64,000 bases of DNA, from NCBI GenBank assembly GCA_017458005.1, contig JAFTGH010000012.1, forward strand, positions 1 through 64,000, read 5' to 3'. Every line of letters starts with the position of its first letter. Position 1 is the first letter of the stretch. Shown here piece after piece: positions 32,766-64,000 of this stretch. The DNA is from Prevotella sp. (lineage in GTDB: Bacteria > Bacteroidota > Bacteroidia > Bacteroidales > Bacteroidaceae). Under the pieces are notes generated by a model. The model did no database searches, was not told the DNA's origin, and worked only from the letters and a program-made list of their open reading frames with translations. A program made the translations under genes and the position numbers.

Positions 32766-34898
32766 ATGGCGAAAGGAGTTGTACACGCTGGAAAGAAGTT
32801 AGGACTTTCATCCGGCAACGCTGACGAGAACGAAAGAAAGATAAACGATAAGGAAAGGAAGGGCGAAAAGAAAGCCTGGGACGAAAAAACCTATCGAAAC
32901 AAAAACAAGATTCCCTGGAATAACTATGATTGGTCGCGTCATAGTCTGAACTTCGAGATAGCAAGGAGTAAAGACGGCAAACCGACGGTTATTCCCCTCG
33001 GTAGCCAAGATGTTACTTTGTATAGACGTTATCAGAAAATTATACAAGATGTTGGGTTCAAACAGTACAAAGTTGGGGCATCTAATCAGCAGCTTACCTA
33101 CATGGAACTGATACTTTCGGGTAGTACGAAGAAAATGCAGAAACTGGCCTTTGGAGACCAAAACGTAGATTTTACCCGTAACCCTCAGCAGTGGAAGAAC
33201 TGGGGTGTTACACGAACAAGGGAAATCGAGCAGTGGGCATTAGACTGTTATGAGTTCATGTGCAAGAAGTATGGCGAAGAAAATATCATCGGTTTCGAGG
33301 TTCATCTGGATGAAACGGAGCCACATATTCACGTAAACATCGTGCCGACGGCCATCATGCAGCAGCGTGGCCGCAATGGTGGATATCATAAAGTGGATGC
33401 CGACGGAAATCCAGTAACCTACACAAAAGGCAAGCACATTGGTGAAGTCATCAAGATATCCGAATCGAAATACAACGCCCTGTCTGAAGATAAGAAAGCG
33501 GAGTATCGCCCGAATGAGCGCGGAACCGTTCACACGATTAGTTATGCATATCATTTCGGAGGGAATAAACCGGAAAGGAGCGCGAAGATGTTCCAACTTC
33601 ACAACGAGTTCCATGAGCATGTGGGCAGTAAATGGGGATTTGATCGTGGTGATATCTGGGCAGAACTGCCGGAAGAAGAGAGAAGAAGAAGAAAACGGCG
33701 TACTAAGCAACAGGCCTACGAGGAAGAGGAAGCAAAGAAGGCTAAGGATAAAGTTCTCGAAGAAACCAATACTGCCACTGAGAAACTTAAAGAAGTGGAA
33801 GAAAAACTTGATGCAAAAGAAAAAGACCTGGAGGCCGCACAAAAAGACCTCGGACTTATTAAGAAGGTTCAGAATCTCATGGAAGAGAATTTAGAAGATT
33901 ATATCCACGCCCTTCCTGATGTCGAAATATCAGTAACTAAGGATATTCGAGCAAAACTGGCTTCTCCGATGAAAGAACATACGAGGATATTAACCTCCAT
34001 AAATCCGCCAATGTCACTTCAGGAATTGGAAAGGGTACTGAAGGAAGTATTGGAAGCTGTTATTATGGATAAGGGCATTTTCCTATCCAAAGAAGATAGA
34101 AATAGGAGAATGAGAGATATTGTAACGGATATGACAACCATCATGATCGAGGCTGCAGGTGGAAAACAAAAGAAGGAAATAACCGCTGTAGGGAGAAAAC
34201 TCTATTTGTCTATTCGAAGTGAAATGGCTGATGCCGTCAGCAAGGCACTTAAATACGATAGTCTGAAGAAAGAAGGATTCGCTGATGTCAATCAGGCAAA
34301 AAGAATGAAAGAAGCAGCCAGCAGAACGAAAGCAACAGAAGATATGTTGGAGTTCTCATGGCCAGGAGTCACAAAAGCAAAAGAGATACTGATCAACCCG
34401 GAACTGGATCAAAAATACATGTCCAAAGAAGAGCGGAATGAGGTTCTTGGCATTCTCCGAAATGACAAGAATCACCCTGAAGACCGTATTGCCGACATGT
34501 TCCGACTGCTGAAGTACGCCTGTGAATTCCGAAACATCCCCCTTGCTACACAGGTTGAGGCACTAATGCTCTCAACTGAAAAGGCGATTACGTATATCAA
34601 AGAAAATACCGGGTGTGATTTCATAGGTGGTGCGAATAACATGATGGCCACCATCTGGGAGCAAATAGAAAAGCCTGCAGAGGCGGTTAATCAGATTGCG
34701 GCATCAGCAGCTTGTCTGTTCTTTGGTTTTGCTGATGCGGCCACTACAATCTCCACAGGTAGCGGTGGCGGCGGTGGAGGTGACAGCGAACTACCGAAGA
34801 AAAAAGACGATGAGAACGATATGCAGTTTGCTGTTAGATGCCTGGTTAGCGCGGCGCAAATGCGACTCCCGACACGTAGATTGAAGAAAGGTAGATAA
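32766..34898 (+). CDS. mobV: MobV-family relaxase
   Basis: A 710-residue Mob/Pre relaxase that should nick oriT and lead the strand in conjugal transfer. The N-terminal catalytic domain has the metal triad motif 'VHLDETEPHIHVNIVP' (HxDE..PHxH, about residue 180). Then comes a long charged coiled coil (~315-390, 'EEEAKKAKDKVLEE'), a helical region, and a Gly-rich C-terminal linker 'GSGGGGGGDSE'. Start at ATG 32766 or ATG 32757. MobV elements such as NBUs and Tn4555 are mobilized by helper conjugative elements. Confidence 0.9.
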   Translation: MAKGVVHAGKKLGLSSGNADENERKINDKERKGEKKAWDEKTYRNKNKIPWNNYDWSRHSLNFEIARSKDGKPTVIPLGSQDVTLYRRYQKIIQDVGFKQYKVGASNQQLTYMELILSGSTKKMQKLAFGDQNVDFTRNPQQWKNWGVTRTREIEQWALDCYEFMCKKYGEENIIGFEVHLDETEPHIHVNIVPTAIMQQRGRNGGYHKVDADGNPVTYTKGKHIGEVIKISESKYNALSEDKKAEYRPNERGTVHTISYAYHFGGNKPERSAKMFQLHNEFHEHVGSKWGFDRGDIWAELPEEERRRRKRRTKQQAYEEEEAKKAKDKVLEETNTATEKLKEVEEKLDAKEKDLEAAQKDLGLIKKVQNLMEENLEDYIHALPDVEISVTKDIRAKLASPMKEHTRILTSINPPMSLQELERVLKEVLEAVIMDKGIFLSKEDRNRRMRDIVTDMTTIMIEAAGGKQKKEITAVGRKLYLSIRSEMADAVSKALKYDSLKKEGFADVNQAKRMKEAASRTKATEDMLEFSWPGVTKAKEILINPELDQKYMSKEERNEVLGILRNDKNHPEDRIADMFRLLKYACEFRNIPLATQVEALMLSTEKAITYIKENTGCDFIGGANNMMATIWEQIEKPAEAVNQIAASAACLFFGFADAATTISTGSGGGGGGDSELPKKKDDENDMQFAVRCLVSAAQMRLPTRRLKKGR

Positions 34899-34899
34899 G

Positions 34900-34971
34900 C
34901 AGATTTGATATGAAAGTAATCAGATTTGCTAAGTTTTTAGCAAATTTTCACCAAAAGTTAGCAGATTTGAT
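34900..34971. repeat. three CAGATTTGMT repeats spaced 21 and 41 bp
   Basis: Copies start at 34900, 34921 and 34962, i.e. about two and four helical turns apart, directly upstream of the promoter at 34982. Between them is hairpin TTTGCTAA/TTAGCAAA (34925-34944). They look like operator sites. Confidence 0.55.
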
Positions 34972-34981
34972 TATTTCTTCG

Positions 34982-35131
34982 TATCTTTGCAGCAGAATTA
35001 AGGTCTTGCTTGGCGATTTCCTGCCGAACCGGTTGTGACGCTGAGGAGCGCTGCGAGACCTTTCACAATAGTCCAGGCCAAGTGACTAACCTCAGCGCGA
35101 TTGGTGCGCTGTTCGGATGGCAGTTCTTTTT
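34982..35131 (+). ncRNA. putative structured RNA with own promoter
   Basis: TATCTTTG (34982-34989) is a -7 box. The following ~135 bases have no open frame of note but four strong complementary pairs: AAGGTCT/AGACCTT (35000-35006, 35056-35062), GCTTGGC/GCCAAGT (35008-35014, 35077-35083), CTGCC-GAAC/GTTC-GGCAG (35021-35029, 35111-35123) and CGCTGAGG/CCTCAGCG (35039-35046, 35090-35097). The pairs cross, so they imply pseudoknots or alternative folds. TTCTTTTTT after the outer stem (to 35132) looks like a termination tract. I do not recognise the RNA class. Confidence 0.55.
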
Positions 35132-35581
35132 TAGGATTGAAGTTTTAGGGATTCCCCTAATTATCTTTAGGAAAAATCCGTTTCATAAATGTAATATAAT
35201 GCCTAATTTTGCATCATAATTGATGGCAAATGTCACAATTCTGAGTAGATTTAGCTCTAAAAAGGCTGAAAAAATTCACTTTCCTTGGCTAATTGGGATA
35301 AAATTCCTAATTTTGTCACGGAATTAACCCGAAAGGGTGCGTTCTTAACATTAAGGGTTATATATAGAGGCGTTATACTCGACATGTCGCTGAAAACGTA
35401 GGAAACTTTCATCGATGTACATGAAGAGGTAGCGAATCTCACGCATATGCGTGGGACTGTTCGTGCTACTTATCTGTACATCATTGGTTTTCCTACGACC
35501 ATCAGCGAAAGAGAGTGGTGCTTTCAGAACCACGCTTCTTTTGTGCTCTTTACAAAAGAAAATAACTAAAAGATTAAAAAT
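35132..35581. other. 450-bp AT-rich non-coding region
   Basis: No plausible gene. It has two TAATTTTG -7-like boxes (35203-35210 and near 35311), several CCTAATT motifs, and the 101-bp interrupted palindrome at 35397-35497 listed separately. Confidence 0.55.
35397..35497. repeat. 101-bp interrupted palindrome
   Basis: Matching arms from the outside inward: CGTAGGAAA/TTTCCTACG, GATGTACA/TGTACATC, GTAGC/GCTAC, with the perfect centre CACGCATATGCGTG (35440-35453). All share one centre near 35447 within 2 bases. It could extrude as a cruciform or fold as RNA. Confidence 0.75.
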
Positions 35582-36298
35582 ATGAAAAAGTTATGTATCA
35601 TACTAACGTTTGCAAGTATACTATTTACTTCTTGTCAAACAATGAATAATATTATGGCTAATCCTGATTACAACTTGCTGGATTTGGCAAAAAGTAAAAA
35701 ATCATTCACGTTAAATGAGCCTTTTCCAGAAAAAGGTTACAAATTAAGGGGATCACTTTATTATGAAATAGAAGTTCAACGATTTACGGATAATGACACT
35801 TTGTATTATTTGAAATACAATCCAAAACGTGAAGCAAGGAATTTCTACTTCACTGTTATAGACAAGCAGACGGTTGATACATTACTCGTCAATACTCTGA
35901 GCAAAAAGGAAACATCATCAGCCTTCCAAAGAAGAATTTGGTTAGACAAGGCTCTTATCGAACTCGGAATAGAAGACTACCAACAAAAGAAAGGCCAATG
36001 GACTTATTTTGTACCCAAATACAAAATGGTTAAAGGTAATCTCCCGACAGACATAGTAAAGTCTGGATTTCATCGCGAATATGAGAAATTCAACTATAAT
36101 ACAGCATTGACTAAGTATTATGAACAACGACATCCGCAGGAAAAGTTATCAGGAATGGAAGTGTTAGGTGCCTTAGTCATTATAAACATGCTATCAGGTT
36201 CTTCAGGTGACAGCCATAGATATTCATGTCGATCATGTCCTGCATCCTTTAGCAACCAGGCCGACTTGCTTACTCACCAGAATGCATATGATCATTAA
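35582..36298 (+). CDS. lipoprotein with a C-terminal C2H2 zinc-finger-like motif
   Basis: A 238-residue protein of the mobile element. MKKLCIILTFASILFTSC is a lipoprotein signal, so the protein is outside the cytoplasm. The body has no family I know; it is rich in Tyr, Lys and Asn and AT-biased, as expected for recently acquired cargo. The last 25 residues, from 'YSCRSCPASF' to 'LTHQNAYDH', have the spacing C-x2-C-x12-H-x5-H of a classical zinc finger, preceded by a hydrophobic patch 'VLGALVIINMLSG'. That motif is usually nuclear or cytosolic, so its presence on a lipoprotein is odd. Clustered with the next secreted protein gene. Confidence 0.65.
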   Translation: MKKLCIILTFASILFTSCQTMNNIMANPDYNLLDLAKSKKSFTLNEPFPEKGYKLRGSLYYEIEVQRFTDNDTLYYLKYNPKREARNFYFTVIDKQTVDTLLVNTLSKKETSSAFQRRIWLDKALIELGIEDYQQKKGQWTYFVPKYKMVKGNLPTDIVKSGFHREYEKFNYNTALTKYYEQRHPQEKLSGMEVLGALVIINMLSGSSGDSHRYSCRSCPASFSNQADLLTHQNAYDH

Positions 36299-36334
36299 TT
36301 CTTAATTTGCACATAGAATAAAACTACTTTGAAG

Positions 36335-37726
36335 ATGAAAAAGGTATTATCAATTCTGTTCGTATTGACATCGTGCATCGCACCATGTAATGCACAATTC
36401 GGAACTTTGGGCAAAATCCTCAAAGGAGCCAAAACTGCCAAAGAAGTAAAAAAGGCCCGCGATAACTGGGGAAACCAGAAAGTCAAGGACATCCACAAAG
36501 ATGTGTCTGTTGATACTACCAGTGCCGAGTACAAGAAAGCAATGGCAGAAGCTCAACAGAGAATGTATGAGAGTAATCCACAACTCAAAAAAATGATGGA
36601 GTTGCAAGGTGACACTGCTGCAATGAGAAAGTATATGGAAGAGCAGTATGGCGGTATGTCACAGGAGGAAATGACCCAAAAGATGATGAAAGACGCTGGT
36701 GTGGATTACGGCAGTAAAGATTTTCAAGATGCCCACGCAAAAGTCCAGAAAATGTCTGGGTTTAGTGATGATCCCGTTTTCAAGAAGATTATGGCAGAGC
36801 AACGCCAGCCAACGATGGAAGAAGCAACCTATCTAAATGAAAAGTATGGAACAACCTTTGAATACAAAGGTATGGAAGCGCTTAATGACTCTATTGGTGT
36901 ATTTGCCCATCTTGCCAGTGGCATGAAACCAATGGGTATAACAAAAATAAAGACCATTTCTGATGAAAAGCCCATACCAGATTTTGGACAGGATGCTATA
37001 AAACAGTATGTGCAGGACTATATTGGCTTCCTTAAGAATCCTCTTGCAGACCGGGAAATCATCGATAGCGTCCAAAACTACATGATATACGATGGCAGGC
37101 ACGCTGACGAGCAGTTTAAGGGTACGGCAAAGTTTACACTTTATTCAAACCTTGAAACAAACATACAGGAATCAAAAGTCAATGAGTTCCTGTCTCGCAA
37201 GATTTCAGACTTTACAGAGCCTATCGACCCCAAGAACATCTTCGTGTTCAAAGTACATAAAGGTATTGGCTGCCGATATATGGAGTACATGTATTCAAAG
37301 ATCAGTTACAAGCAGAGTGAGTTAATGGATTATACCTGCAAGCGTCTGGTCAATGAAGGATACATTGATGCAAACATTAATCAGAAACTTTCTGATGATG
37401 AACTATTTAAGGCTATTGACAAGATGGAATTTCAATTTAAGATAGAGAAATTTCTAAAGATTCGCCAGAATAATGAGAAGTTCATGTACACGAATACTAT
37501 TCCTGCTGCAAAGAATGTGAAGTTAACATCCAACACGCGCAAAATCGGTCATGTGACGGCTCTTGATGTTTACATAGAAGCAGAGCCAGGAGAATATGCA
37601 TTCGTTATCCGAAATCCAGAGGTGGAACAATATATCAAAGAGTTAGATGCTTCAAAGGATAACGGGTTCTATGACTTCGACATTTCAGTCTTGACGGAAG
37701 GGGCATTCTTCTTTACCATCAAATAG
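36335..37726 (+). CDS. secreted hypothetical protein, 463 aa
   Basis: The N-terminus MKKVLSILFVLTSCIAPCNAQ is a signal peptide (possibly a lipoprotein signal, with LTSC). The mature protein is soluble and Lys/Met-rich, with a helical first half (residues ~30-150, many KKM/MEEQYG repeats of amphipathic type) and a mixed second half ending 'DISVLTEGAFFFTIK'. No catalytic motif or family is recognised. Start set at ATG 36335; a TTG 6 bases upstream is possible. It follows the zinc-finger lipoprotein gene by 36 bp, so the two likely work together at the cell envelope as cargo of the element. Confidence 0.6.
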   Translation: MKKVLSILFVLTSCIAPCNAQFGTLGKILKGAKTAKEVKKARDNWGNQKVKDIHKDVSVDTTSAEYKKAMAEAQQRMYESNPQLKKMMELQGDTAAMRKYMEEQYGGMSQEEMTQKMMKDAGVDYGSKDFQDAHAKVQKMSGFSDDPVFKKIMAEQRQPTMEEATYLNEKYGTTFEYKGMEALNDSIGVFAHLASGMKPMGITKIKTISDEKPIPDFGQDAIKQYVQDYIGFLKNPLADREIIDSVQNYMIYDGRHADEQFKGTAKFTLYSNLETNIQESKVNEFLSRKISDFTEPIDPKNIFVFKVHKGIGCRYMEYMYSKISYKQSELMDYTCKRLVNEGYIDANINQKLSDDELFKAIDKMEFQFKIEKFLKIRQNNEKFMYTNTIPAAKNVKLTSNTRKIGHVTALDVYIEAEPGEYAFVIRNPEVEQYIKELDASKDNGFYDFDISVLTEGAFFFTIK

Positions 37727-37766
37727 ATGAATTTTTCACAGAGATGCAAAATAATTGCTGAAAAAC

Positions 37767-37842
37767 TTGCTGATATGCCAAACTTTCCTTATCTTTGCAC
37801 CGCAAAGTGCAATACAAGTGCATTAAAGATACAATACAATTG
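37767..37842 (+). promoter_or_regulatory. toxin-antitoxin promoter with repeated operator
   Basis: TTG 37767-37769, 20 bp, TATCTTTG 37790-37797. Downstream, CAATACAAKTG occurs at 37810-37820 and 37832-37842, 22 bp apart, between promoter and antitoxin ATG: a likely site for antitoxin autorepression. Confidence 0.65.
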
Positions 37843-37846
37843 AGAT

Positions 37847-38116
37847 ATGGCAACAACAATTAAACGCAAAGCAGCATCTTTCCGTCTTCCAAGTTATCTG
37901 CTTGAAGGACTGAAGACTGAGGCCAGGAGGCAGCATCGCAGTGTGAACAACCTCGTAGAAGTTGTTCTGTTGAAGTCGCTGTATAATGAGCCCAATGCAG
38001 AAATGCTGGCTGCAATGAAAGAATGTCAGTCTGGTGTAGAACTGGAGGACTTTGATCCGAACGAACTGGATAAGTACATCTATGCGGAAACAGCTGAAGA
38101 AGTCCACTCAGTTTAA
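37847..38116 (+). CDS. antitoxin of a type II toxin-antitoxin system
   Basis: An 89-residue protein. The N-terminal 'TIKRKAASFRLPSYLLEGLKTEARRQHRSVNNLVEVVLLKSL' is a ribbon-helix-helix DNA-binding domain (strand ASFRLP, then two helices). The acidic C-terminal tail ('ELEDFDPNELDKYIYAE') would wrap the toxin. It is encoded upstream of and overlapping the toxin gene by 35 bases, the usual order. Repeated operator-like motifs precede it. The module probably stabilises the mobile element. Confidence 0.8.
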   Translation: MATTIKRKAASFRLPSYLLEGLKTEARRQHRSVNNLVEVVLLKSLYNEPNAEMLAAMKECQSGVELEDFDPNELDKYIYAETAEEVHSV

Positions 38117-57343: not shown

Positions 57344-57374
57344 CAAAGTTACGAAAAAAGCTTGTAAAGAACAA
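57344..57374 (-). promoter_or_regulatory. promoter of the phoH-purM operon
   Basis: Minus strand: TTG (complement 57372-57374), 20 bp, TAACTTTG (complement 57344-57351). It decides the TTG start of phoH. Confidence 0.75.
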
Positions 57375-57679: not shown

Positions 57680-58900
57680 ATGAGAAGTACATTCAACATT
57701 TTGTTCTACGTGAACAAGAGTAAGGAGAAGAACGGTGTGGTGCCTGTGATGGGACGTGTGACTATTAACGGCACTCAGAGCCAATTCAGTTGCAAGAAGT
57801 CCATCCCGCTTGATATGTGGGACGTGAAGGGCAACTGTGCCAAGGGACGAAGCAAGGAGGCTTTGCAGATTAACCGTGAGTTGGATAACATCAAGGCGCA
57901 AATCATCAAGCACTATCAGCGTCTGTCAGACCGCGAGGCTTTTGTGACGGCAGAGATGGTGCGCAACTCCTATCAAGGCTTTGGCAGCGAGTATGAGACA
58001 CTGTTGAGTGCTTTCGACAAGGACATTGCCAACCAGAAGAAACGTGTGGGCAAGGACAGGGCTGCAAGTACGCTTTGGGCTATGGAACGTTCGCGGAAGG
58101 ATGTGGCTGATTTCATCCAATCGCACTACCGTCGCACTGATATGTCGATGCTTGAACTGACACCTGAATTCATCAAGGACTTCGCCACCTATCTCAGTAC
58201 TGACCGAGGATTGGCCAATGGAACTATCTGGCAGAGATGCATGTGGCTGAAAGGCGTTGTACTGAGGGCGCACTACAACGGCAAGATTCCCCGTAACCCG
58301 TTCGCGCAGTTCCACATCAGCCCGAACTGCAAGGAAAGGGAGTTCCTGACCGAAGACGAACTGAAAGCTGTCGTGACGCATGAGTTTGAGGACGACAACC
58401 TCGCCTTCGTGCGTGACATCTTCGTCTTTGTCTGCTTCACCGCCCTCTCGTTCATCGACGTGAAGAACCTGACCACGGATAACATCGTGAACGTCAATGG
58501 CGACAAGTGGATTATCAGCAAGCGGCACAAGACTAATATCCCTTTCCAGGTGAAGCTGATGGACGTTCCCTTGCAGATTATCAACCGCTATAAACACCTA
58601 CAGGAAGACAAGTTGGTGTTCGGCAAGATGAACTACTGGTCGATGTGCAAGAAACTGAAAACGGTGATGACAGCCTGCGGCATTGAGAAAGCCATATCCT
58701 ACCATTGTGGCCGGCACTCGTTCGCCACGTTGGCGCTTTCAAAAGGAATACCCATCGAGAGCGTGAGCCGTGTATTGGGACACACTAACATCGTGACCAC
58801 CCAGATTTACGCCAAAATCACAAGTCAGAAACTTGACAACGATCTGACAATGCTCGGCAATAAACTCAATGCATCGTTCAAGGACATAAAGAGAGCATAA
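57680..58900 (+). CDS. int: tyrosine recombinase, IntDOT-like
   Basis: A 406-residue integrase of the Bacteroidetes conjugative-element type. N-terminal arm-binding domain ('STFNILFYVNKSKEKNGVVPVMGRVTINGT' region), SAM-like core-binding domain (~110-215) and catalytic domain with 'ISYHCGRHSFATLALSKG' (HxxR) and 'LGHTNIVTTQIYAKI' (His, nucleophile Tyr). The Arg I position reads 'FVCFTALSFIDVKNL': Ser instead of Arg, as known for IntDOT. It differs strongly from the tRNA-Ser element integrase. Confidence 0.92.
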   Translation: MRSTFNILFYVNKSKEKNGVVPVMGRVTINGTQSQFSCKKSIPLDMWDVKGNCAKGRSKEALQINRELDNIKAQIIKHYQRLSDREAFVTAEMVRNSYQGFGSEYETLLSAFDKDIANQKKRVGKDRAASTLWAMERSRKDVADFIQSHYRRTDMSMLELTPEFIKDFATYLSTDRGLANGTIWQRCMWLKGVVLRAHYNGKIPRNPFAQFHISPNCKEREFLTEDELKAVVTHEFEDDNLAFVRDIFVFVCFTALSFIDVKNLTTDNIVNVNGDKWIISKRHKTNIPFQVKLMDVPLQIINRYKHLQEDKLVFGKMNYWSMCKKLKTVMTACGIEKAISYHCGRHSFATLALSKGIPIESVSRVLGHTNIVTTQIYAKITSQKLDNDLTMLGNKLNASFKDIKRA

Positions 58901-59019: not shown

Positions 59020-59322
59020 CTATCGTTTATATGCAGGATGATAGCAACTTTCCAGAACTCTTGCCAAATCACTTTCACGATAAAGTACCTTGCCACCTAA
59101 TAATATATATGGTAGCATGCTATCATTTCGGTATTCCTGTAGTGTTCGTCTGCTGACTTTTAGAATACTGGCTACCTCCCTGTCTGTTAAGTAGCGCTCA
59201 CCATCAAGCAATGGACGATAATTGCCTATTACCTTCTTGTATATGGCAAGCACCTCCTTCATGTTCTCTAGTGCATTCTTCACACCAACGTTATGCGGCA
59301 TTATCAATTCGTTCATAGGCAC
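59020..59322 (-). CDS. helix-turn-helix DNA-binding protein (HTH_17)
   Basis: A 100-residue protein. A helical N-terminal half (residues ~15-40) precedes 'LTDREVASILKVSRRTLQEYRNDSMLPYILLGGKVLYRESDLARVL', a MerR/Xis-type winged helix. It overlaps the upstream HTH gene by 10 bases. Such pairs are standard near integrases of Bacteroidales elements and act in excision or mobilization control. ATG 59316 is an alternative start. Confidence 0.8.
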   Translation of the reverse strand: MPMNELIMPHNVGVKNALENMKEVLAIYKKVIGNYRPLLDGERYLTDREVASILKVSRRTLQEYRNDSMLPYILLGGKVLYRESDLARVLESCYHPAYKR

Positions 59323-59633
59323 TCAGTTTTGAGGTTACACATTTTGCTATCTTTATCCTTATCAGTCACAATAAAAAGAATACTCTCCACATCCTCTGGC
59401 TTATAATATACCTTGCGGTTAATTTGAGAATACGCTAACGTTCCATTGTCACGAAGCGTTTGTAATGTTCTTGGACTAATGTTTAGAATCTGGCACACAT
59501 CTTGGTTGTCAAGCCAATCGCCCAACTTTTTGTCATTGCCTCTACTTGCCATCTCCTTCATCTTTGTGACGAAACTATTGAAGCTCGTCAGCAGCTCCTC
59601 GTAGGTACTGCGCTCAATTGATACTACTTCCAT
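59313..59633 (-). CDS. helix-turn-helix DNA-binding protein (HTH_17)
   Basis: A 106-residue relative of the following gene: N-terminal helix 'STYEELLTSFNSFVTKMKEM', then 'WLDNQDVCQILNISPRTLQTLRDNGTLAYSQINRKVYYKPEDVESIL', the winged HTH. The C-terminal ~15 residues are Lys/Asp-rich. A -7 box lies 28 bases upstream on the same strand. Likely co-regulator of excision. Confidence 0.8.
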   Translation of the reverse strand: MEVVSIERSTYEELLTSFNSFVTKMKEMASRGNDKKLGDWLDNQDVCQILNISPRTLQTLRDNGTLAYSQINRKVYYKPEDVESILFIVTDKDKDSKMCNLKTECL

Positions 59634-59668: not shown

Positions 59669-60015
59669 CACCATAATCTCCAAATAGGCTTATTATGAAA
59701 ATTCCTTGTTGTGAAATAACAATTCAGGGAAATAAAAACCTAATGTCTGCCGAGCTTGCTCATCTGAAAATGGACAAGCATCTTTGTGTGGCACTTCACA
59801 GAAAAGTGCGTATTAGGCTACACCCTTCTACGGCATCTATGTATGGTATTGCGAGCAATTGGTGTGTGTATACCTACTTTTATTGTGGTATAATACAAGA
59901 AAAAACAGTTCGGCTTTTGGAAATGATGATGATTATACTTATATTTTATTAATTACATGATAATGAATTAAAATTTATGTGTATCTTTGCATCGGTAAAA
60001 CAAAAATGTAGCAAA
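59669..60015. other. AT-rich gap with the promoter of the accessory operon
   Basis: No convincing gene (a plus-strand frame at 59695-59952 lacks any family likeness). TATCTTTG at 59982-59989 is the -7 box of the operon starting at 60016. Confidence 0.6.
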
Positions 60016-60801
60016 ATGAAAATGCAGAAAGTACTGGAATTTAATGGAATGTCTTTTGAATTGCTATTAGCAGATAGAGACAAGGAAGATTTTCCTCGTG
60101 AACGTTTTAGGGCAATTCTCAGAATAAAAAACATAAGTATTTCTAAGAAAAAAATTGCTATTAAGGAAGACGGAACAAAGTACATTTCAATAAAGCATGG
60201 TTTGGAATATGCATATCATATTAAGCCATACCAGTTTGCATTAACAGACGGTACATTCATACTTCCAGATTCATTTGCTGATGTGACAATACAATTTGAT
60301 GTTGTCAAGGAGGCTCAAAACGGGGATAGAATGGAAATAGAGGTAAGAGATTTGGCATTATTACCCCTTGTCAAATGGGATGGTCAATGGTATTGGGGTA
60401 TCGACGAAATTGAGGATAAGAGGATTTCTTCGAATTCAAATAGAGAATTGACCTATGAAGAAAAGAAATCCCTAAAAAAACAGCTTAAGAGCAAAATAGA
60501 ACACTTTGAATCCATTGATGAGAAGTTCGGTTTGTCTCTCCAAAATTTCTCTTTTGACATTCTTGATAACTCTACATTGAAATTGTTCTGCGAAGTATTA
60601 GCTTTAAACGGTGAAGTTCCGAAAGAAGGATTTAATGTTGAAGTGGCTATTTACGACACGGACAATGATATTATCTGCTTAAAGAGTATATCCAAATATG
60701 ACAATGAATTCAAAGGATTTGAGGTCTTTGGATTTGGGCCAATAAAGTTGGACATTCCAGTTGATGAAATAGGAAAAATTAGATTTTATCCGACAAGATG
60801 A
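60016..60801 (+). CDS. unknown protein, first gene of the candidate defence operon
   Basis: A 261-residue soluble protein that I do not recognise. The first half is beta-rich ('VLEFNGMSFELLLADRD', 'RAILRIKNISISKKKIAI', 'VTIQFDVVKE', 'MEIEVRDLALLPLVKWDGQWYWG'), suggesting a sandwich-type domain. A charged helical linker follows (~150-175), then a second beta-rich domain ('LKLFCEVLALNGEVPKEGFNVEVAIYDTDNDII'). It may be a sensor or scaffold. Start ATG 60016 lies downstream of the -7 box; an ATG at 59977 overlaps it. Its stop overlaps the next ATG by 4 bases, so the two proteins are made together. AT-rich relative to the chromosome. Confidence 0.65.
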   Translation: MKMQKVLEFNGMSFELLLADRDKEDFPRERFRAILRIKNISISKKKIAIKEDGTKYISIKHGLEYAYHIKPYQFALTDGTFILPDSFADVTIQFDVVKEAQNGDRMEIEVRDLALLPLVKWDGQWYWGIDEIEDKRISSNSNRELTYEEKKSLKKQLKSKIEHFESIDEKFGLSLQNFSFDILDNSTLKLFCEVLALNGEVPKEGFNVEVAIYDTDNDIICLKSISKYDNEFKGFEVFGFGPIKLDIPVDEIGKIRFYPTR

Positions 60802-62834
60802 ACGTGAGTATAAATGAATTAAGGGATTCTCTCATAAGGGAGGCAAAGAGTTCTCCTATGTTGCTTTCTGATCTTGCAGGCTTAGAGGCATACGTTTCTG
60901 AAAGCTATAATAGTCGCTCATTCATAGAACTGTTGCAAAATGCTGATGATGCAGGCTCGACGAGATTTTATGTAAAGCGCTATGGTAATTACCTTTTCGT
61001 TGCAAATGATGGACGACCTTTCAATATAATGGACTTAGAAAGCCTGTGTCGCAGCGCTTCTTCCAATAAAGCGAGAGGAACTTCTATCGGTTATCGAGGA
61101 ATAGGCTTTAAGTCGGTAGTCAGTTTTGCTAAAGAGGTCCATCTTATAAGTGGTGAATTTGAAATAACTTTTTCAAAGGAGTTGACAAAGACTATTATTG
61201 ATAAGGCAAATAAAGTTCCGCTAATCAGGATCCCTCATGAACTACAACAGAATGTCAAGCAAGAACTTGATACGGAAATATCCAAGATTCAGAAAGATGG
61301 CTATAATACGATCTTCATTTTCTCAGGTGTGACTGCAAATCAAATAGACGAAGAATACACTTCATTTGCTTATACAACCTTGATGTTCTTGAACAACGTG
61401 AGAAACATTAAAATCAGTTTGAATAAAGAAGTAAATGCAAGTATCAATGTTTTAGAACAAAATGGAAGTAAAAAAAAGATAAGAATCGCAACCAATGAGA
61501 AGATCACGGAGTGGCTTGTTTGTTCTAATGATAGTTGTAGTATCGCATTTGCAATTAAGAATGGTAAGATAAACAGATTAGCAAGGGAAGAAGCTGTGAT
61601 TCATGCCTTCTTGCCAACAGATGATTGTTGTGGACTAGGTTTTATTGTTAATGGTGATTTTAGTACTGACCCATCACGCAGACATCTCATATTTGACGAA
61701 ACAACAAAAAAAGTTATTACTGATATAACCAAATTGTATTGTAAGATTCTACAACAAGGCCTGCAAGAAGACAATGAAGGTTTATTAAATGCCATGATGC
61801 CCTACTTTGATGTTAAGCTCATCCAGTTAATGAAGCAATCTTTTGAAAGGGAGTTCGCAAATCTACTGAAAACTAATTGTAGTACCCTGTTCTCAAAGTT
61901 CAGACTCTCACCGTCATGGTTCAATGCTTCTGATTTCCATATTATTATGTCATCTGCAGCCAAGCCCTGTATAAGTCCTGAATGCGCCGAAGTAATTTAC
62001 TTAGATGGTATGTTAAAATTTTTAGGGAGCAAGACATGTGACATAGACACAATATTATCCTTAGTAAACTCTGCTGATATATCGCTAAATGGTTGTGCTC
62101 AATTAGCTGCTTATAGTATGAAACAAATCTTGATGAATCACAAGGTCAGTGCGTTTACTAAGACGCCTATTTTTGTCAGTGGAAGTGAACTACGCAGTAT
62201 AAATGATATCAATGATAACGAGAATGAGATTGATGACTGTTTTTTGCAACTGATGATTGACAATGGCATATCAAATAAGGACATTGGCATATGCCTAAAA
62301 AAATTGGGAATGAATGATTTGTTTGACTTACAATTCAATGAAGAGATTCCCGATGAATCAGATACTGATGACTGTGACTCTGCCAGATCTTCTTCCAGTA
62401 TAAGAGATTGGTTCAAAGCCAGTTCATCTTCATCGTCTGTACCTACATCGTCAAGTGTTCAGAAATGGAGAAGTGCAGAGGAAAATACGCTTGCTGCACT
62501 TAATGAAAATGGCTTTAATTTATCTGATGTCAGCATGCAAAATGTTGGATATGATTTATCGGGGATTGATCCTAATGGAAACAAAATCTATATCGAAGTA
62601 AAATCTATTGATTACGCTGGACAGAAATTCAGAATGACAAACAATGAGTTTGCTGCTGCACAATATAATCAGGATAACTACTATATTGCTATAGTTCATC
62701 AGACAAAGGAAGCATTGGAAATAAGTCTTGTGAAAAATCCTATTCGAAATCTTAATATGAACAGACAATGTGTCCAATGGGTCTGGGAATGTTCTGGCTA
62801 TGAATACAACCCGATGAAATTCGAGTTGAAATAA
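60798..62834 (+). CDS. GHKL (sacsin/Hsp90-like) ATPase fused to a DUF3883 nuclease-like domain
   Basis: A 678-residue two-domain protein. The N-terminal GHKL ATPase has all boxes: N-box 'SFIELLQNADDAG' (Glu44, Asn48, Asp51), G1 'FVANDGRPF' (Asp71), G2 'SIGYRGIGFKSVVSF' (98-104), in the form used by sacsin and NO VEIN proteins. A helical middle of unknown fold and a Ser-rich linker (about 530-555) lead to a C-terminal DUF3883 domain: 'GYDLSGIDPNGNKIYIEVKSI' has Asp586 and Glu600-x-Lys602, the PD-(D/E)xK arrangement. This suggests a nucleic-acid-cleaving effector controlled by ATP-driven closure. Four-base overlap with the gene before; 29 bp to the next. Confidence 0.78.
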   Translation: MNVSINELRDSLIREAKSSPMLLSDLAGLEAYVSESYNSRSFIELLQNADDAGSTRFYVKRYGNYLFVANDGRPFNIMDLESLCRSASSNKARGTSIGYRGIGFKSVVSFAKEVHLISGEFEITFSKELTKTIIDKANKVPLIRIPHELQQNVKQELDTEISKIQKDGYNTIFIFSGVTANQIDEEYTSFAYTTLMFLNNVRNIKISLNKEVNASINVLEQNGSKKKIRIATNEKITEWLVCSNDSCSIAFAIKNGKINRLAREEAVIHAFLPTDDCCGLGFIVNGDFSTDPSRRHLIFDETTKKVITDITKLYCKILQQGLQEDNEGLLNAMMPYFDVKLIQLMKQSFEREFANLLKTNCSTLFSKFRLSPSWFNASDFHIIMSSAAKPCISPECAEVIYLDGMLKFLGSKTCDIDTILSLVNSADISLNGCAQLAAYSMKQILMNHKVSAFTKTPIFVSGSELRSINDINDNENEIDDCFLQLMIDNGISNKDIGICLKKLGMNDLFDLQFNEEIPDESDTDDCDSARSSSSIRDWFKASSSSSSVPTSSSVQKWRSAEENTLAALNENGFNLSDVSMQNVGYDLSGIDPNGNKIYIEVKSIDYAGQKFRMTNNEFAAAQYNQDNYYIAIVHQTKEALEISLVKNPIRNLNMNRQCVQWVWECSGYEYNPMKFELK

Positions 62835-62863
62835 ATGGAGGATAACAAAACACGGCATGAATT

Positions 62864-64000
62864 ATGAAATTACATATCTTAGGAAAAAATAAGAAAGATA
62901 AGGGAGGCCAGTTGGAGACCTTGACCAAGCTCATATTGGCAAATCAAGGTTATACAAATATAACTTTAAATTACATCGGAACTGGAGGACATGAAATTGA
63001 TGTTTATGCTATAAGGAGACAAACCGTCGGTATTAAAGAAGTAGAGTACCCTGTAATTTGCGAATGTAAGGCTCATGAAAAAATGATTTCAATGCCTGAT
63101 TATGACAAGTTCAAGGGAAAAGTCACAACTGCAAAAGAAAAGAATAAGAATACATCAGGTTTACTTATTGCTCTTTCTGGAGCTATGGGAACTGTTATAG
63201 GAGCTAATGATGCAAATAAGAGTGATATACAATTAATTGCTAATGACGATATTACAAGACTAATATCTCAATTATACTCTTTGCCATCCCCATTTGAAGT
63301 TAGAAACTATATAAGAGGTATAACCCATAGAGTTGTTGTTAATGTTGATATTGTATATTATAATAATGAGGTATATTGGCTCATAATATTTAGCAAAGGC
63401 AATTATATCCTATTTGATAGGTCTTTTAGCACAATAGAAGCCTCCTTATTAGTTGAAATCCAGCATTTGTTAGTCAAAGTTGCCCCTGTATCTGAATATA
63501 TAGACATATTTCAGGAACAAAAGGCTTTCATGAGGAAAACTTTTATTGAAAGTTCTATTATAATGTACCTAATGTCAGATAGAGTCGGCATCGATGATCT
63601 ACTTACAAAAGTGAAAGACTCATCAATTATTACGACGAAAAAAGAAATAAGAAATCTTATCAAGGAAATACCATTTGTTGTAGAAATATCTAAAGACTAT
63701 TACGAACTACTTCCAGAAGAAGAGATTTCTTATATTGACTTTTACGAGTTTGTGCTAAGAGGAAGTGTTGATCTTCAGATGTTTTCTCATTGTTATTATA
63801 CAGATCATATTGACGAGAGTCTCCTTGAAAAGATAAAAGAAAGACAACACTATATTGTCATTCCAAAAGAAAAGGAAGATGAAGTGCTGTTTTTGTTAAA
63901 ACATTCTCCTTCTGCTTTAGCATATGCTATTGAGGAAGATAAAAATATTACAAGATATCGCGGCAAAGATGGTAAGTGCATGTCTGAAAGAATTGACAAG
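62864..64000 (+). CDS. Mrr-like restriction endonuclease (3' end beyond the window)
   Basis: The frame from ATG 62864 stays open to the last base (about 379 codons). Residues ~12-100 form a restriction-endonuclease-like domain: 'KGGQLETLTKLILANQGY' helix, 'GTGGHEIDVYAI' (Asp46) and 'YPVICECKAHEK' (Glu67-x-Lys69), then a long helix 'YDKFKGKVTTAKEK'. This is the Mrr_cat pattern of enzymes that cut modified or foreign DNA. The rest (from ~150) is a helical region with no recognised family, possibly for DNA or partner binding. It probably belongs to the operon of the two preceding genes. Confidence 0.75.
   Translation, partial: MKLHILGKNKKDKGGQLETLTKLILANQGYTNITLNYIGTGGHEIDVYAIRRQTVGIKEVEYPVICECKAHEKMISMPDYDKFKGKVTTAKEKNKNTSGLLIALSGAMGTVIGANDANKSDIQLIANDDITRLISQLYSLPSPFEVRNYIRGITHRVVVNVDIVYYNNEVYWLIIFSKGNYILFDRSFSTIEASLLVEIQHLLVKVAPVSEYIDIFQEQKAFMRKTFIESSIIMYLMSDRVGIDDLLTKVKDSSIITTKKEIRNLIKEIPFVVEISKDYYELLPEEEISYIDFYEFVLRGSVDLQMFSHCYYTDHIDESLLEKIKERQHYIVIPKEKEDEVLFLLKHSPSALAYAIEEDKNITRYRGKDGKCMSERIDK

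Follow-up and report, generated by a model that had tools for sequence, protein, structure and literature searches.

The last four kilobases of a 64,000-base stretch of Prevotella sp. DNA (GenBank assembly GCA_017458005.1, contig JAFTGH010000012.1, positions 1 to 64,000; hereafter the window) carry three closely spaced genes, here called g1, g2 and g3. The window belongs to C46, a contig of 83.7 kb in a draft genome of 3.05 Mb. An earlier note on this DNA had proposed that the three genes form an undescribed defence system, in which an ATP-gated sensor and two nucleases act together. The present analysis indicates that g1 and g2 almost certainly form a real two-gene unit, in which a variable small protein is paired with a conserved, predicted ATPase-nuclease. 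The genes, and a candidate promoter element upstream of them, are as follows.

59982..59989, plus strand: candidate promoter box TATCTTTG, read from the sequence; weak, with no clear -33 box
60016..60801, plus strand: g1, partner protein of 261 amino acids (aa), with a variable N-domain (about residues 1-156) and a conserved C-domain (about residues 157-261)
60798..62834, plus strand: g2, sacsin-type GHKL ATPase fused to a NOV_C/DUF3883 PD-(D/E)xK domain, 678 aa
62864..64000 (window end), plus strand: g3, Mrr_cat-type protein, assigned on the basis of PF04471

A reading-frame check confirmed the three coupled frames described in the earlier note: g1 and g2 share a 4-base overlap, and 29 bases separate g2 from g3. 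The g3 frame runs past the window to C46 position 64246, giving a full length of 460 aa. An alternative in-frame ATG for g1, at 59977, would give a protein of 274 aa; the box TATCTTTG, which fits the Bacteroides -7 consensus TAnnTTTG, would favour the start at 60016.

The earlier note's description of g2, a GHKL ATPase joined to a DUF3883 domain of the PD-(D/E)xK type, was borne out by library matches and by conserved residues. The sacsin/GHKL region matched PF25794 (E 1e-9) and NCBIfam NF047352 (E 3.4e-20, residues 40-116), the NOV_C/DUF3883 region matched PF13020 (E 3.1e-14, residues 566-638), and a g2 family profile searched against the sequences of solved structures at E 0.01 gave four matches, all to sacsin. 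In an alignment of 68 g2 homologues, the N-box residues E44, N48 and D51 were each kept in 67 (with one gap), and N70, G72, G98, G101, G103 and K105 were kept in all 68; g2 has the N-box E/N/D and the two glycine motifs of the GHKL superfamily. The putative nuclease positions of the D...ExK motif were kept nearly as well, with D586 found in 64, E600 in 62, and K602 and E617 in all 68, so that g2 appears to have the active site of PD-(D/E)xK (DUF3883/NOV_C) enzymes. The residues that the earlier note had named, Glu44 and Lys602 in g2 and Lys69 in g3 (where the ECK motif starts at residue 67), were correctly placed.

Relatives of g2 were collected in a genome scan that used g2 and a Planococcus plasmid protein as queries, with one genome per species and two peptide patterns; the plasmid protein aligns with g2 over its full length at 30% identity. 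The scan gave 195 stretches; 94 loci were confirmed, and the 80 best were retained. With the Planococcus plasmid locus and the window's own locus (L002), these make a set of 82 loci, which is neither a complete nor a random sample. The g2 protein is 600-830 aa long in 74 of the 82 and incomplete in the other 8. A tree of 68 of the proteins, with the 8 incomplete ones and 6 near-copies omitted, contains members from Bacteroidota, Planctomycetota, Hydrogenedentota, Verrucomicrobiota, Pseudomonadota, Actinomycetota, Bacillota, Cyanobacteriota and Chloroflexota and from one archaeon. Searches of 295 genomes of the order and 395 of the phylum found only partial g2 matches beyond the window's own genome; phages gave one partial match, and viral contigs searched with two peptide patterns gave none.

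The linkage of g1 to g2 recurs across this set. By tblastn, g1 lies directly upstream of g2 in 22 of the 81 other loci. When the upstream gene was defined as the longest frame to end close to the start of g2, 73 of the 82 loci gave one for clustering, and g1 fell into a single large cluster of 35. What unites the members of this cluster is a domain of about 100 aa at the C-terminus. Many members are hardly longer than this domain (about 110 aa), and others, g1 included, carry an extra N-terminal domain. Judged by eye, the alignment of g1-type proteins suggests that a helix precedes a beta-rich C-domain. Profiles of four partner families were then run on the six-frame open reading frames of all 82 loci, counting matches on the same strand, within 450 bp of g2 and at E 1e-8 or better. 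A g1-type partner was found in 38 loci, which span eight phyla, a helical partner of about 210 aa in 17, a 154-aa partner in 6, a partner of about 1100 aa in 5, and no partner in 16. No locus had two partner families within 450 bp of g2, and in three loci (L080, L086, L123) the g1-type gene was found downstream of g2 only. Partner labels placed on the g2 tree change 12 times, versus 33.2 in shuffles, none of 200 being as low. For the 28 loci present in both alignments, distances between g2 proteins and between g1-type C-domains were correlated (r 0.88; none of 2000 permutations as high).

Library searches said little about what g1 is. It has no Pfam or NCBIfam match, and comparisons of the g1 type with Pfam, NCBIfam, PADLOC and PDB sequences gave nothing usable, the best Pfam match being DUF5067 at 1.4e-4 in 1 of 33 members. 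Searches with g1 found it in no plasmid or phage and, among the 395 phylum genomes, in the window's own genome only. Profile comparison showed no relation among the partner families except that the helical 210-aa family matches a stretch near the N-terminus of the 1100-aa family (hhalign probability 95.8).

Some observations concern the other partners. Two g1-type copies are present in nine loci and two 154-aa copies in three (L087, L088 and L132, where they lie downstream of g2), the copies being 30-63% alike. Members of the 1100-aa family, about 770-1380 aa long, are found at L096:2843-6976 and upstream of g2 in L097, L099, L108 and L135; apart from one weak PPR repeat, the two members scanned matched nothing in Pfam. 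In L061:1421-2770 and L065:4208-5482 the g1-type protein has an in-frame N-terminal continuation of about 430 aa, 65% identical between the two and present in no other of the 82 loci; by eye, it looks like two copies of a helical domain.

The g1 gene varies beside a conserved g2. Seven distinct Bacteroidales pairs have g2 proteins 93-97% identical; they are drawn from six loci of different species and so are not independent. In six of these pairs, with g2 at 95-96% in some of the loci, the g1 N-domains are only 26-52% identical and the C-domains 59-75%, and in the seventh the values are 92% and 73%. At the DNA level, identity in neighbouring 150-base windows rises by 0.17-0.35 at the g2 start in five of eight pairs: from 0.57 to 0.92 in L064/L072, 0.60 to 0.90 in L060/L065, 0.59 to 0.86 in L061/L062, 0.61 to 0.81 in L060/L071 and 0.66 to 0.83 in L071/L114. 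The g1 genes of L061 and L060 form the reverse mosaic, with N-domains 47% and C-domains 94% identical. L065 has two g1 genes; the copy adjoining g2 is nearest to the window's g1 (N-domain 65%, C-domain 74%) and the second is nearest to the g1 genes of L114 and L063, while the L065 g2 is 93% identical to that of L114 and 60% identical to that of the window. More broadly, the N-domain is less conserved than the C-domain in 62 of 66 pairs from 12 loci, and in 14 further pairs, covering all four partner families, the partner is less conserved than g2 in 10. The identity table omits L131, lacks the first residues of the L058 g1, and gives figures from the 40 closest of 120 pairs. Variability and mosaics of this kind in g1 are to be expected where a recognition module is exchanged. 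The earlier note had suggested that the first protein acts as scaffold or sensor; a variable detector or adaptor is the better reading of g1, in preference to a scaffold.

The genes near g2 bear on the setting in which the pair works. At E 1e-5, 139 near neighbours of g2 matched 277 PADLOC models, the strongest of the 25 models listed being PglZ and PDC-S05, with two proteins each. The 139 were drawn from 267 listed genes, omitting L057, L066, L070, L092, L130 and L131 (cut g2) and two genes longer than 1200 aa, and they include two genes of the window's own element, g3 and one helix-turn-helix (HTH) gene. The control set, 63 genes chosen out of 106 candidates in the core region that adjoins the element in relatives, matched 20 models, the best at 1.5e-40. 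Ten neighbours scanned singly included matches to a type IV restriction enzyme (L102), HerA (L122), AbiGi (L056) and PDC-S31 (L064). The enrichment of PADLOC matches favours defence, as support and not proof, and we consider that g1-g2 probably serves defence.

On balance, and with modest confidence, we infer that g1 is a detector or adaptor that gates g2, an ATP-dependent nuclease, most likely against phage. The g2 protein would be the effector: its GHKL module would bind ATP, presumably dimerise, and control the C-terminal DUF3883 PD-(D/E)xK domain, the predicted cutter of nucleic acid. The conserved C-domain of g1 would dock on g2 in a complex, and the fast-changing N-domain would recognise a feature specific to infection, such as a phage protein or a nucleic-acid state. 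This trigger would turn the ATPase-nuclease on. In other g2 lineages, unrelated partner families would play the same role. More tentatively, the family may be a widespread bacterial form of immunity that couples a single ATP-gated nuclease to interchangeable detectors. Different lineages would draw on four partner families (g1-type, 154-aa, and the helical family with its 1100-aa relative) for one kind of effector; inside a lineage, recombination between loci would swap the recognition domain beside a nearly unchanged effector, and specificity would evolve through the swap of a separate small gene. We regard this wider picture as possible.

Several observations weigh against these proposals. 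The assignment of DUF3883 as a nuclease draws on family knowledge and on the motif. Two further pairs are identical in g2 and g1 alike, three of the eight pairs (L061/L060, L002/L065 and L002/L056) show little or no identity step at the g2 start, and in 4 of the 14 further pairs the partner is about as conserved as g2. When only Bacteroidales are counted (12 loci), g2 and C-domain distances correlate less well, with r 0.56 and 10 of 2000 permutations reaching as high a value. The 16 loci with no recognised partner include 5 with an incomplete g2. As the partner profiles were built from genes adjoining g2, the adjacency is partly by construction; as a counter-check, the g1-type profile matched 1 of the 395 phylum genomes, the window's own, in a sample where the g2 family too is otherwise present only in part and at most seven first-look candidates were scored per genome. 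On the defence side, the controls also hit some models repeatedly (mad8 with 6 of the 63 genes, Nhi with 4) and come from one core region, the PADLOC tallies count models rather than proteins and are redundant, and the ten single scans gave 4 proteins that match defence-type models, 1 that matches a TPR model (L085) and 5 without a match.

With its small gene first, its overlap of 4 bases, its tight pairing and a single partner family for each effector, the pair could also be toxin-antitoxin-like: g2 would be a nuclease that harms its own cell, and g1 would inhibit it until infection, or the loss of g1, sets g2 free. The inhibitor of a near-unchanged effector should stay conserved, but g1 does not in six of the seven close pairs; nine loci have two g1-type copies that are only 30-63% alike; and GHKL gating would give g2 a control of its own. 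We judge this explanation unlikely.

A further candidate explanation, likewise improbable, is a restriction-type enzyme in which g1 is an HsdS-like DNA-recognition subunit that steers g2 to DNA sequences or modified bases. In favour, g1 resembles type I HsdS in being a fast-changing, apparently swapped candidate recognition module that adjoins a conserved enzyme, and its modular N-domain change recalls the exchange of type I target-recognition domains. Moreover, DUF3883 has been termed a novel restriction endonuclease (REase) domain (PMC3710099) and has been counted, presumptively, among type II REase groups (PMC10609329). Unlike type I systems, the g1-g2 locus has no recognised methyltransferase or motor subunit, and g1 is without a Pfam match. 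No methyltransferase was found by Pfam, up to E 1, among the seven recognised genes of the element that carries the pair, so that only a modification-dependent enzyme would fit. In addition, the 33 g1-type members showed no convincing DNA-binding family, and the short g1 forms of about 110 aa have no N-domain.

In line with the earlier note, which could name no described system of this composition, comparisons with PADLOC, Pfam and the literature gave no full match to a named system, and no description of the g1-g2 pair was found in openly licensed literature. PADLOC's TmtA, which we take to be Tiamat, has a related sacsin-type GHKL region (best E 1.3e-57), but its profiles are 1063-1782 positions long and the best was matched only over positions 12-384 of 1538. 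Tiamat was rejected, since coverage is partial and confined to the ATPase part, and g2 has just 678 aa. PD-T4-1 (E 4.9e-7, residues 580-646), PDC-S36 (1.6e-6) and HmaA (1.7e-5) gave weak matches to the nuclease region; they match the C-terminal region only, and have neither the GHKL part nor g1. The NOV_C domain takes its Pfam name from plant NO VEIN, a eukaryotic and far larger protein that, like g2, has a NOV_C domain with an Hsp90-like ATPase. The closest validated analogue in logic is VcSduA, a type I-D Shedu protein, which like g2 joins an N-terminal GHKL ATPase and a C-terminal PD-(D/E)xK nuclease in one protein, and for which anti-phage activity was demonstrated and was lost on inactivation (PMC12137116). 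Unlike g2, its nuclease is DUF4263 and not DUF3883, and it is a single-gene system, with no small partner mentioned in the available part of that source. Shedu was rejected for g2: NOV_C and sacsin, but not DUF4263, are among the four Pfam matches of g2 up to E 1, and no Shedu model was among its 13 PADLOC matches up to E 1. It has been hypothesised that the N-terminal clamps of Shedu set specificity (PMC12904381), which resembles the detector role proposed for g1 but within one protein. In MORC and paraMORC proteins, GHKL+S5 ATPases are joined to nucleases in conflict loci, and these GHKL proteins belong to restriction-modification loci (PMC2292703); the g1-g2 element differs in having no recognised methyltransferase, and the library matches of g2 favour sacsin.

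The g1-g2 pair is cargo on a small integrative element, the further features of which are the following.

57347..57358, strand not assigned: left end of the element, 12-bp direct repeat; exact match to a second copy at C46 66226-66237, beyond the window
57680..58900, plus strand: tyrosine recombinase, 406 aa, with PF17293 (Arm-DNA-bind_5), PF13102 (Phage_int_SAM_5) and PF00589 (Phage_integrase)
59020..59322, minus strand: small HTH_17 protein (PF12728, E 4.9e-11), presumably excisionase- or regulator-like
59313..59633, minus strand: second small HTH_17 protein (PF12728, E 3.7e-11)
C46 64340-65902 (L002:9341-10903), outside the window: fourth cargo gene, 520 aa, SLFN_AlbA_2 plus HATPase_c_4 plus winged helix/HTH

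The two 12-bp exact repeats (18 bases at 89%) lie 8879 bases apart, for an element of about 8.9 kb in which seven genes were recognised: the recombinase, which agrees with the upstream integrase of the earlier note, the two HTH_17 genes, g1, g2, g3 and the fourth gene. An empty site was found in a genome of the same genus (G692, locus L146), where the left flank runs to the repeat and is followed directly by the right flank; identity is 73% over 971 bases on the left and 89% over 57 bases on the right. In G690 (L142), the left flank runs into sequence that matches a more distal part of the right flank. These are 2 of the 11 relatives' loci compared, the others having no right flank there and L149 having partial matches. 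The AT-rich composition reported earlier was also seen: the final pair of 2-kb bins in the window have a G+C of 0.356 and 0.337, versus 0.40-0.54 elsewhere, and this low G+C agrees with a mobile element. Location on such an element, and on a plasmid in one relative, is compatible with a non-defence role in element maintenance or in competition between elements, for example against plasmids or rival elements. This role seems quite improbable, as there are more PADLOC models per protein near g2 (277 for 139) than in the controls (20 for 63), although that evidence is indirect.

Elsewhere in the window, another low-G+C stretch (0.40) at 34001-38000 has a strong AT skew of 0.12-0.16. The fourth gene starts 93 bases past g3 and has an in-frame 12-base repeat region at L002:10636-10719. 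Tandem repeats with 22-base spacing lie at L002:11367-11460 (C46 66366-66459), in the interval that separates the element's right end from the core gene that follows. Beyond the fourth gene are, among others, a DUF5715 protein and, by our reading of its sequence, a probable threonine synthase.

The Mrr_cat match of g3 is weak: E is 2.2e-5 for the 379 aa in the window and 3e-6 for the first 150 aa. It was lost in a scan of the full 460 aa and regained with the first 150 aa, probably a filter effect, which could hide such nucleases in automatic annotation. By tblastn at E 1e-3, g3 was found in none of the 81 other loci, in flanks of up to 7 kb, some of them cut by contig ends. The 395-genome phylum sample gave only its own genome and two weak N-terminal matches, and no full-length g3 was found in plasmids. 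The slot behind g2 is filled in relatives by AbiGi (L056), DUF2971 (L064) or a protein whose match to deoxyribosyltransferase falls below the cut-off (L065). The fourth gene gave one short strong and four weaker tblastn matches in the 81 loci. Of the three-gene unit proposed earlier, the link between g1 and g2 stood, and the inclusion of g3 did not: the three-gene order is not conserved among homologues, g1-g2 recurring without g3, and the idea of two nucleases acting in one system is likewise unsupported. Although the three genes share a strand, an element, a 4-base overlap and a 29-base gap, a single system of all three is very improbable, given the failure to find g3 in the other loci, its near-absence from the phylum sample and the other genes in its place, and was rejected. 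We read g3 and the fourth gene as separate cargo.

In sum, the earlier reading is corrected in that the Mrr-like g3 lies outside the recurrent unit. If our proposal for g1-g2 is right, a two-gene system found in many phyla would join the GHKL-gated nucleases, of which VcSduA is a validated case. With the detector separate from the effector, the trigger would be mappable through natural g1 alleles that lie beside near-identical g2 proteins. The pair would also place the ATPase plus NOV_C architecture of plant NO VEIN in a bacterial context.

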